A stretch of DNA of 64,000 bases from a virus, in IMG/VR virus record IMGVR_UViG_3300021142_000028, positions 1-64,000 of that record; one strand, given 5' to 3'. A program made the position numbers and the translations under genes. Numbering within the stretch: position 1 is the first letter of the stretch; the number at the start of each line of letters is the position of its first letter. The notes beneath the pieces were generated by a model, which was given only the letters and a program-made list of their open reading frames with translations, did not search any database and was not told where the DNA came from. Positions 5,969 through 44,727 of the stretch are shown here, one piece after another.

Positions 5969-6059
5969 TGGGGTGTGAAGTCAATGGAAGACGACTAGTT
6001 TTGGGAACTAGAAAGTAGGTTAATATCCGAAAATGCGAGTTCGAGTCTCGTCACCCCAA
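5969..6059 (+). tRNA. tRNA-Pro(TGG) with an unusually long variable region
   Basis: Acceptor TGGGGTG/CACCCCA is perfect and the anticodon arm CTAGT-TTTGGGA-ACTAG gives TGG. About 23 nt lie between the anticodon stem and the T-stem, like a class II tRNA, although Pro tRNAs are class I. The identity rests on the anticodon only. Confidence 0.75.
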
Positions 6060-12823: not shown

Positions 12824-13165
12824 ATGACACATTAGATTAATAAACTTGTAGTAATAACCAGAGGTGATATGACACCAGGTTATCAAATGGCACAAAGTTG
12901 TCATTCAGTATCACAGTTCATACTTGAACATCATGATTTGGCTAAGAAATGGAATAACAATTTTTTAATATCGTTATCCATTGATTCAGAAGAAAAATTA
13001 AGTAATTTATTAACAAAAATTCAAGATATTGGCGTTCCTGTGTCTTATTTCACAGAACCCGATATTGACAATCAATTGACTTCAATTTGTTTCCTTGAAA
13101 CGGAACAAACAAGGAGATTAACATCGTCATTACCTTTATCATTAAAAAATTTTAATAAACAATAA
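12824..13165 (+). CDS. peptidyl-tRNA hydrolase (PTH2 family) with in-frame TAG
   Basis: The frame reads ATG ACA CAT TAG ATT and then NKLVVITRGDMTPGYQMAQSCHS. The K-L-V-V-x-x-R-x-D strand and the G-x-x-x-A-Q-S-C-H segment are the PTH2 core, so the protein must begin before the downstream ATG 12869. The amber codon at position 4 therefore has to be read through, or translation starts at the ATT after it. A CTA-anticodon tRNA lies 1.9 kb downstream. PTH2 recycles peptidyl-tRNA, which fits a genome rich in tRNA genes. Confidence 0.75.
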
Positions 13166-13176
13166 AACAAACAGTT

Positions 13177-13437
13177 ATGATGTAGATTACAGAAAAGAAA
13201 TGTGAAATTGTATTTCACTTCAACAAGAAACATTTGGAAGACCCTACCATTCCAATGTGGGTAATTAAATGTAGGGGTGACACTCATTATGTCCATCACG
13301 TAGTTGTAGAACCCGGTGTTGGTTTCTCAACAAAAGAAACTCCAAATAACACTCATACAAAGGGGAGTATCAAATTTAAAGCAAATTTGGTTTTAGAAAC
13401 GGATGAGAATAATCAGACAATCGCAAGGTTGTATTAA
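13177..13437 (+). CDS. conserved hypothetical protein with in-frame TAG at codon 3
   Basis: The frame reads ATG ATG TAG ATT ACA GAA and stays open to TAA 13437. The segment upstream of the first non-ATG start has normal coding character (ITEKKCEIVFHFNKKHLEDP). The body is beta-rich with His-rich THYVHHVVVEPGVGF and a C-terminal KGSIKFKANLVLE strand, perhaps a small metal-binding or jelly-roll-like domain. The TAG-ATT arrangement repeats that of the upstream PTH2 gene. Confidence 0.6.
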
Positions 13438-14043: not shown

Positions 14044-14115
14044 GGTAAAGTGACCGAGTGGTTAGGTGTGGGAACAGACGTTCTTATTACAAAGGTTCGA
14101 ATCCTTTCTTTACCT
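14044..14115 (+). tRNA. tRNA-like gene, anticodon unclear (AGA by position)
   Basis: Perfect acceptor GGTAAAG/CTTTACC, T-arm AAAGG/CCTTT. Canonical numbering gives anticodon loop ACAGACG, i.e. AGA with C instead of U at 33. The alternative GGAAC-AGAC-GTTCT hairpin is stronger. It may be decayed or specialised. Confidence 0.5.
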
Positions 14116-14296: not shown

Positions 14297-14330
14297 GGCA
14301 TGTTAACTCAACGATAGAGTAGGATTTTAA
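14297..14330 (+). tRNA. 5' half of a tRNA, truncated
   Basis: GGCATGT, a D-arm (ACTC...GAGT) and the start of an anticodon stem are present, preceded by an AGTTCTTTG leader. No matching ACATGCC or T-arm follows. The minus-strand HNH gene begins its stop codon here, so its insertion probably destroyed the tRNA. Confidence 0.45.
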
Positions 14331-22058: not shown

Positions 22059-23021
22059 TTTTGTTGTATTTTGATTTACTTGTGTATTTGTTTGTGGTGT
22101 TACGGTATTTGTTTGTAATGGGTTATTGAGTTGTGTATTTCCTTGAGGTGACTTATAATTGTATTTATGTGCACTTAAAGCCTTATTTAAATTTTGTGTA
22201 TCTGCGTATGTTGGTGTTGTTTGATTACTATCTTGATTTTGTAATGCATTTGCTGTTTCAGGACCTACAATACCACTTTTATCTTTTAAATTATTATTTG
22301 TTTGAAAATTTATTACCGCTTGTTTAGTTACATTTCCAAAATGACCATATTGATTTTGAGGAAGTTGTAATTTTAATTTCATTTGAAGAGTTTTAACCGC
22401 ATCTCCATTAGAACCAAAATGTAAATATTGTTTTCCTTGTAAAACATCATTAAAATTATCTACTTTTGATTGTAGTTTTGCTGGTTTGTTTTTCAATGTT
22501 TTTGCAAGTGTTTCTGCTTGACGAGTTTCATCACTAGTTATATTATATTTTTTGACATAATTTGTCCATTCCATCCCATTTACTGAACTACCAGGACTTA
22601 CAATTGTACCATTTTGTAATGAATTGAACGCATTTGCAATATTTTGAATTCTATTTGGGTCTGTTGCAGGTTTTGTTTGAGTTGCAGTTCCTGGTGGAGG
22701 ATCTGGTATAATATTTTCACCATCACAACTATATGTTCCAAATTTACTAGTTGTGGTATTATAATATTTTTTATTATTATAAAATACCTTATCTGCGTTT
22801 TCATTTTCACCTCTTACATAATATTGATTATTTTCATTTTCAATACCATTTTTTCTTATGATATTTTGAACACATGGTGGGTATGTATTTATATTATTTG
22901 GATTTGTTTTTTGATAATAAGAATTATCTACCTCATTTAAATAATTCTTTTTTGTTGCATTTACATGAAGATTTAATATTCTTATTTTCTCTCCTTCTGA
23001 TAATATAAACTTATTTTCCAT
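22050..23021 (-). CDS. peptidoglycan-binding protein with N-terminal leader
   Basis: 323 residues. The leader (KFILSEGEKIRILNLH, then YLNE at 27-30) belongs to the packaging-leader group. A Cys-bracketed PPCVQN...GTYSCDG module (about 48-110) is shared with the 667-aa protein upstream. A PG_binding_1 domain follows (LHFGSNGDAVKTLQMKLKLQ...GPETANALQ), then a Q/N/T-rich low-complexity tail. It probably belongs to the virion or its lytic apparatus. Confidence 0.7.
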   Translation of the reverse strand: MENKFILSEGEKIRILNLHVNATKKNYLNEVDNSYYQKTNPNNINTYPPCVQNIIRKNGIENENNQYYVRGENENADKVFYNNKKYYNTTTSKFGTYSCDGENIIPDPPPGTATQTKPATDPNRIQNIANAFNSLQNGTIVSPGSSVNGMEWTNYVKKYNITSDETRQAETLAKTLKNKPAKLQSKVDNFNDVLQGKQYLHFGSNGDAVKTLQMKLKLQLPQNQYGHFGNVTKQAVINFQTNNNLKDKSGIVGPETANALQNQDSNQTTPTYADTQNLNKALSAHKYNYKSPQGNTQLNNPLQTNTVTPQTNTQVNQNTTKTN

Positions 23022-44319: not shown

Positions 44320-44727
44320 ATGGTTTAAATTGCTGAAAAAAATGTTAAACTAACATCAGGTATTAAAAAAGATGATAAAAAAAATTATGTTTCCACAAAT
44401 GATATCGAAAAATTGGAAAATGTCGGAATTAAATATATGGGAATCTGCGACGGGTATCAAATATTCGAAACCCCAAATAAATTAAAAGATGATGAAAACG
44501 CATGGAAAGTTTATAAAACAATCCTAGCAAATTGCGCAGGAAGAGACCAAGGCGCATCAATACAAATTTGCACAATGGGAGGATATTATCACTTTAAACA
44601 TTATCTAGACTTATATCCAAATTCTTCATATTTCACAATATATAATCTGAGTGACCCATTATCACCATATCAAATACATTTTGAATCAAACCAATTTATG
44701 GATAAAAATAACCAACAAGCTTTATAA
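44320..44727 (+). CDS. hypothetical protein with stop codon at position 3
   Basis: The frame reads ATG GTT TAA ATT GCT GAA and then stays open (KLTSGIKKDDKKNYVSTNDIEKLENVGIKYMG...) to TAA 44727. The first downstream canonical-type start is TTG 44413, which would lose 30 plausible residues. ATT 44329 directly after the stop may be the real start. The protein is alpha/beta with GRDQGASIQICTMGGYYHF; function unknown. Confidence 0.5.

Follow-up and report, generated by a model that had tools for sequence, protein, structure and literature searches.

How can two adjacent phage genes be expressed when each meets an in-frame stop codon within a few codons of its start? The question is raised by a 64,000-nucleotide stretch of viral DNA (the window) that sits in a 69,276-base virus record. 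A gene for a PTH2-type peptidyl-tRNA hydrolase (12824..13165, + strand, ATG through TAG; 113 aa counting TAG as one residue) opens with ATG ACA CAT TAG (12824-12835). TAG is its fourth codon (12833..12835), ATT follows directly (12836..12838), and the frame is open to 13165. The neighbouring gene, X (13177..13437, + strand, ATG through TAG; 86 aa), encodes a small predicted all-beta protein and opens with ATG ATG TAG (13177-13185); here TAG is the third codon counted from ATG 13177 (13183..13185), followed by ATT and a frame open to 13437. A CUA-anticodon tRNA, proposed as the key to both genes, lies nearby on the same strand (15055..15126; found by ARAGORN and by Rfam as RF00005, 59.0 bits). 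Both starts and the tRNA had been described in the initial annotation, and all three descriptions hold. Between the gated genes and the tRNA lies an HNH endonuclease gene (14327..14944, − strand; PHROG HNH families), which is not thought to be part of the mechanism. Two near-identical contigs (13.6 and 162 kb) show identical bases at both starts, so the early stops do not stem from a single assembly error. Many giant bacterial viruses have such a stop codon near the beginning of a gene or two and, adjacent to it, a putative read-through tRNA, which together look like a natural lock and key that would restrict these proteins to times when the tRNA of the virus is there.

Conservation of the early stop codon

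A PTH2 profile search led to 26 viral loci, and a search with X drew on 80 of 375 relatives. Scoring covered a total of 76 PTH2 and 87 X records, which reduce at 95% identity to 51 and 52 non-redundant sequences (less than 95% identical, ungapped, over about the first 90 residues of PTH2 or 65 of X). Genes with an in-frame stop one to eight codons behind an in-frame ATG are called gated here. Among the 51 PTH2 genes, 47 are gated by TAG, one is gated by TAA, and three (L046, L049 and L053) are ungated. The TAG stands at codon 3 in 23 genes, codon 4 in 12, codon 5 in 10, and codons 2 and 9 in one each (the positions in L042, L043 and L055 were placed by hand). The tally leaves aside Lak phages, Mycobacterium phages and GenBank records beyond five from huge phages (LR756504, LR745206, LR756501, LR756502 and LR756500), in which PTH2 reads ATG, one or two codons, then TAG ATT. 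Inspection of four PTH2 genes outside the tally (L010, L138, L139 and L140) found no clear gate.

X is gated by TAG in 34 of 52 cases (33 tallied, plus L136 recounted by hand) and has a plain ATG start in 18. Seventeen of these 18 stand directly behind PTH2, and that PTH2 is gated in 16 and has its start cut by the contig end in L075; the lone ungated X that does not follow PTH2 is in L134. The X-like sequences of Phosso and Atu_ph07 form a portion of a longer protein and are ungated. A cultured phage also carries the arrangement: the X gene of Rhizobium phage RHph_I1_18 (MN988519.1) opens with ATG AGT GAG TTC ATG TAG AAC, and an annotated tRNA-Pyl(cta) lies immediately 3′ of it. X itself has no annotation there. 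Standard gene callers stop at TAG, so genes such as X escape annotation.

A mechanical control took every ATG followed by up to five codons, a stop and an ORF of length ≥50 in 86 loci (1,201,869 bases) and clustered these candidates by homology beginning at the stop, with TAA and TGA serving as controls. It returned 550 candidates (TAG 218, TAA 214, TGA 118) and only two large families that start at the stop: PTH2 with 48 members (47 TAG, one TAA) and X with 44 (all TAG); the third-largest cluster has four. With tRNA-chosen loci added (139 loci), the two clusters grow to 61 (60 TAG, one TAA) and 47 (all TAG), and the next has five. The abundance of PTH2 and X is expected, since the loci were fetched through homology to them or through the tRNA; the near-exclusive use of TAG as the stop in both clusters is beyond expectation.

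Linkage to putative suppressor tRNAs

A CUA tRNA was called in the same locus as 40 of the 47 TAG-gated PTH2 genes and none of the three ungated genes of that set (P about 0.006, or 120/19600, with kinship ignored; as kinship persists in the non-redundant set, such P values overstate the case). The tRNA is on the strand of the gene in all 64 pairs compared, at a median distance of 751 bases from PTH2 and 630 from X. Of 741 tRNAs called, 96 are CUA and a single one is UUA, and that sole UUA tRNA sits in L054, the sole locus gated by TAA. ARAGORN called no CUA tRNA in the locus of seven of 47 gated PTH2 and nine of 33 gated X genes. Pattern scans of whole records (17 and 16 records, respectively) for the missing tRNAs gave one ARAGORN-confirmed CUA tRNA, in the contig of L107; six loci (L144-L146 and L148-L150) gave tRNA-like candidates that are not CUA by ARAGORN, and the scans turned up nothing convincing in several gated records, including contigs of 158, 230 and 330 kb. 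The first pattern recovers 64 of 70 known CUA tRNAs.

Several tRNA-like sequences with unusual anticodon loops were seen along the way. Three phages of about 640 kb with gated PTH2 (L144, L145 and L146), in which no ordinary CUA tRNA was called, have tRNA-like sequences whose long anticodon loops contain TTCTAAC. In the window, Rfam finds a tRNA at 14044-14115 (+; 44.1 bits) that ARAGORN misses; where a 7-base anticodon loop would be expected, this tRNA has 8 bases. UUA-anticodon tRNAs also occur near PTH2 genes without a clear gate in L139 (LR745208) and L010 (Lak-B7).

The linkage was also approached from the opposite side. Scanning for nothing but a CUA-tRNA pattern brought up 61 loci, some of them repeats of earlier contigs; ARAGORN called a CUA tRNA in 55. 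Where starts were visible, PTH2 and X matches in these loci were gated in 21 cases and ungated in 12: five X genes in loci with a gated PTH2, one X that is the L134 contig again, one partial PTH2 (L191) and five PTH2 genes with an ordinary start despite the CUA tRNA (L178, L194, L202, L203 and L227). These last five form a distant subfamily, scoring 32-63 bits against 100 or more. In the tRNA-chosen sample, then, not every phage with a CUA tRNA is gated, and the gate is a feature of one large PTH2 clade and of X.

The bodies of the 71 distinct suppressor tRNAs (70 CUA, one UUA) are very different. Their nearest elongator tRNAs are mixed (Trp 15, Gly 13, Arg 8 among them) and point to no single amino acid. 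Judged by these comparisons, the conserved trait is decoding of the stop rather than the amino acid, as a gate would predict.

One could also suppose that the stop senses release factor: near-cognate tRNAs would read UAG when RF1 is scarce, much as in RF2 control, and the CUA tRNA would be incidental. The early stop does lie in a context of weak termination (see below), the search for a CUA tRNA came up empty at some gated loci, and the PTH2 gene of L049 could shift by +1 at its early stop. Against this, the tRNA accompanies most gated PTH2 genes, always on their strand where this was compared, and in the single TAA case the type of stop follows the anticodon. We consider a release-factor sensor improbable. 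The L049 gene itself, just before position 6001, reads ATG AAG CGG ATC TAA C, and a +1 shift at the stop leads into the conserved frame; the sequence comes from a single contig and may be an error.

Coding constraint and the site of initiation

The initial annotation held that conserved coding sequence begins right after TAG, and this was borne out: the first later ATG is 11 codons in for PTH2 and 23 for X, beyond conserved sequence. Between TAG and that ATG, pN/pS is 0.344 for PTH2 and 0.066 for X, compared with 0.63, 2.1, 3.0 and 17 in other frames, and to go by these ratios the stretch is evolving as protein. The model of X places its first strand at residues 4-16, directly past gate residue 3.

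An alternative that makes the tRNA unrelated is that ribosomes start at the AUU after TAG, or restart there after a tiny ORF. AUU start codons exist in bacteria (infC), and 58 of 81 gated genes have ATT directly behind TAG when 5.9% would be expected. Other codons occur in this place, however (ATA, ATC, GTA, GTT, ACA, ACT, AGC, AAA and AAC), so AUU initiation is not a general rule; ACA, ACT, AGC, AAA or AAC is found after TAG in four of 47 PTH2 and two of 33 X genes. The spacing of the Shine-Dalgarno core fits the ATG, lying 6-10 bases 5′ of it in 24 of 34 gated X genes (it is at 13 bases in one and missing from nine); the core is absent from 44 of 47 gated PTH2 genes. A start at AUU would also leave the tRNA linkage and the TAA/UUA match unexplained. 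The unusual start that the initial annotation had offered as its second option thus fails as a general explanation and is distinctly improbable. Its first option, read-through of TAG, is well supported by the TAG, which persists across deep divergence, the linked same-strand tRNA, the coding constraint and the TAA/UUA match; to call the two starts "direct evidence" of it was an overstatement.

The base following the stop is also constrained. It is a purine in all 81 gated genes (A 73, G 8), against a background of 67.4% (codons 3-5 of other ORFs, n=2,553), and the next base after ordinary TAG terminators is T in 45% of 80. Purines right after an amber codon raise suppression, according to the available part of PMC6266110.

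Use of TAG elsewhere in the genomes

Genome-wide recoding of TAG (code 15) would turn the early TAGs into ordinary sense codons. A suppressor tRNA encoded by the phage is indeed present, and PTH2 has one extra internal TAG in L025 (LR756501), L044 and L045. TAG is not a widespread sense codon in these genomes: no internal TAG with coding sequence on both flanks was found in the 69 kb, and TAG read-through gene pairs number zero in the window's record and its 162-kb relative, with one doubtful case in RHph_I1_18. It still ends genes (six of 108 in the window's record, eight of 174 in the 162-kb relative and 11 of 204 in RHph_I1_18), and in nearly all gated genes the early TAG is restricted to codons 2-5. 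The best reading is that these phages use the standard code apart from the gates, with TAG still terminating genes, and general recoding is very unlikely.

Bacterial initiator tRNAs have a C-A mismatch at 1:72, a feature relevant to the proposal that UAG is itself the start codon, decoded by a CUA initiator. TAG does occupy the place where ATG would be expected in many family members. None of the 71 suppressor tRNAs has the C1-A72 mismatch, though (the pair is GC in 54, CG in 8, GT in 7, TA in 1 and TT in 1). An in-frame ATG lies one to eight codons upstream in 47 PTH2 and 33 X genes (this is part of how a gate is defined), only L049 among early-stop PTH2 genes has none, and the Shine-Dalgarno core is spaced to that upstream ATG. 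Initiation at UAG is extremely unlikely. That the genes are pseudogenes or assembly errors has a negligible chance of being right: they look broken under the standard code, and the X homologue of RHph_I1_18 is unannotated, but an identical codon recurs in dozens of independent assemblies with purifying selection downstream. These last two proposals, general recoding and the AUU start were each tested and set aside on the evidence given.

A few other frames with odd beginnings were noticed. At 44320-44727 (+) a frame opens with ATG GTT TAA ATT GCT GAA and has a strong coding signal before its first later ATG; the early stop here is a TAA, and no UUA tRNA occurs in the window. A coding-like frame at 21893-22078 (−) has no start and overlaps the end of the 22050-23021 gene, a possible frameshift. 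Beyond the window, at record position 67883 of L002, a frame opens with TAG CTT ATC, continues as GYTHYW and lacks an in-frame ATG upstream; it could reflect a frameshift or be one more recoded start.

The gated proteins

Translated with TAG as a residue, the PTH2 of the window matches Pfam PF01981 (E 3.2e-5, residues 7-78) with its first strand included, and its profile matches the solved PTH2 structures 24bt and 2zv3. Family alignments indicate that this first strand is required by the fold. A catalytic Lys/Asp/Thr has been proposed for PTH2. Asp80 and Thr86 do not vary among 23 sequences. At the GK(G)K motif this phage clade has Tyr-Gln where the lysines would align, and the catalytic lysine seems to be replaced. 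The activity of the phage clade may differ for that reason, and the proteins may bind without cutting, or cut in another way.

X, read in the same way, gave no convincing match in family searches. Its AlphaFold model has a mean pLDDT of 87.9, with no Foldseek match at E ≤0.001 and a best VIA-align Z of 2.5; in bacterial genomes, 46 pattern matches to X yielded no confirmed case. Three further TAG-gated genes near gated PTH2 genes form a cluster of their own (L027:24165, L050:3192 and L179:10426, the last on the − strand). The two of these that were scanned belong to phrog_14850, and one of the two has a weak HD-domain match below the Pfam cut-off. The PTH2 of the window matches the N-terminal part of phrog_14850, which suggests PTH2-HD fusions.

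A proposed suppressor-tRNA gate

The best explanation, and very probably the right one, would be a suppressor-tRNA gate on genes that handle tRNA. Ribosomes would initiate at the ATG and reach UAG at codon 4 (PTH2) or codon 3 (X) in the window; termination would follow there unless the phage CUA tRNA decoded the codon, giving the full protein. The gate position seems to tolerate any amino acid. Translation would need both the mRNA and a mature, charged suppressor tRNA, which amounts to a coherent feed-forward loop or AND gate. Host RF1 would have to be outcompeted at the stop, and the purine 3′ of UAG would aid suppression. Where the order is tRNA-PTH2-X, PTH2 alone carries the gate; the start of X overlaps the end of PTH2, and X is perhaps translationally coupled to it.

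Conservation of the stop, linkage, coding constraint, codon context and the match of anticodon to stop are observed features, and from them we infer that the tRNA is charged, that it reads UAG, and why a gate would be kept. A feed-forward gate calls for an early in-frame stop before conserved coding sequence and for a linked cognate tRNA; the first is found, and so is the second at the 40 PTH2 loci and the TAA/UUA locus described above. Counted against it are the five distant ungated PTH2 genes with a CUA tRNA, Xanthomonas phage XacN1 (below) and the gated loci in which no tRNA was found; competition from host RF1 would count against it too.

As for its use, the gate would likely tie PTH2, and in some phages the HD-type protein, to the phage tRNA supply. 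PTH2 acts on tRNA, as the HD-type protein perhaps does, so the gate could serve as a readout of the phage tRNA pool. A broader reading, which we regard as evenly poised between right and wrong, is a natural and widespread suppressor-tRNA regulon: phages with the standard code would keep a single early stop (UAG or UAA, codon 2-9) in genes that handle tRNA, carry the cognate tRNA and use the stop as a sensor of their own tRNA supply. Its members would be PTH2, X and the HD-type protein, and the tRNA body and probably the amino acid would drift freely. The proteins would be made only after the phage tRNAs have matured and been charged, or would be lost if host nucleases destroyed those tRNAs. 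RHph_I1_18 is in culture and lends itself to a test of the gate.

Comparison with known systems

In the autoregulation of RF2 (prfB), ribosomes shift by +1 at an early in-frame UGA, and no dedicated tRNA takes part. Its likeness to the phage gate is an early in-frame stop that needs recoding to make a translation factor.

Code 15 phages (crAss-like phages and Lak) also read UAG with a phage CUA tRNA, and a role in the timing of expression has been proposed, as set out in the available portions of PMC10746230 and PMC10879173. TAG is described there as a sense codon in many, above all late, genes, whereas in gated phages it stays a terminator and the recoded site is one 5′ codon in one to three genes.

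The PTH2 family is itself known from phages. It occurs across jumbo phages according to the accessible part of PMC7824862, as the same protein family as the gated PTH2, and the terms "suppressor" and "stop codon" are absent from that part of the text. XacN1 is a jumbo phage that, like the gated phages, has a peptidyl-tRNA hydrolase as well as suppressor tRNAs of the CUA type; its authors found no target genes, as far as the available part of PMC5852040 goes. Its CUA tRNAs number two, its PTH2-like gene is ungated, and in the unannotated stretch adjoining the suppressor tRNAs no recognisable gated gene was seen by eye. No published description of such a gate was found in the accessible text of the open-licence PMC literature, preprints excluded.

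An engineered counterpart also exists. The "leak dampener" places amber codons after the initiator ATG and supplies a suppressor tRNA, according to the available part of PMC7969014. Like the proposed phage gate, it has an amber codon right after the start, a co-controlled suppressor tRNA and the logic of a coherent feed-forward loop. In the portion seen of that report, the dampener is synthetic, built in E. coli, and uses the leucine suppressor supP, whereas the phage gate is natural, is conserved in many phages and has differing tRNA bodies. The likeness suggests that the engineered amber-after-ATG gate also arose in nature.
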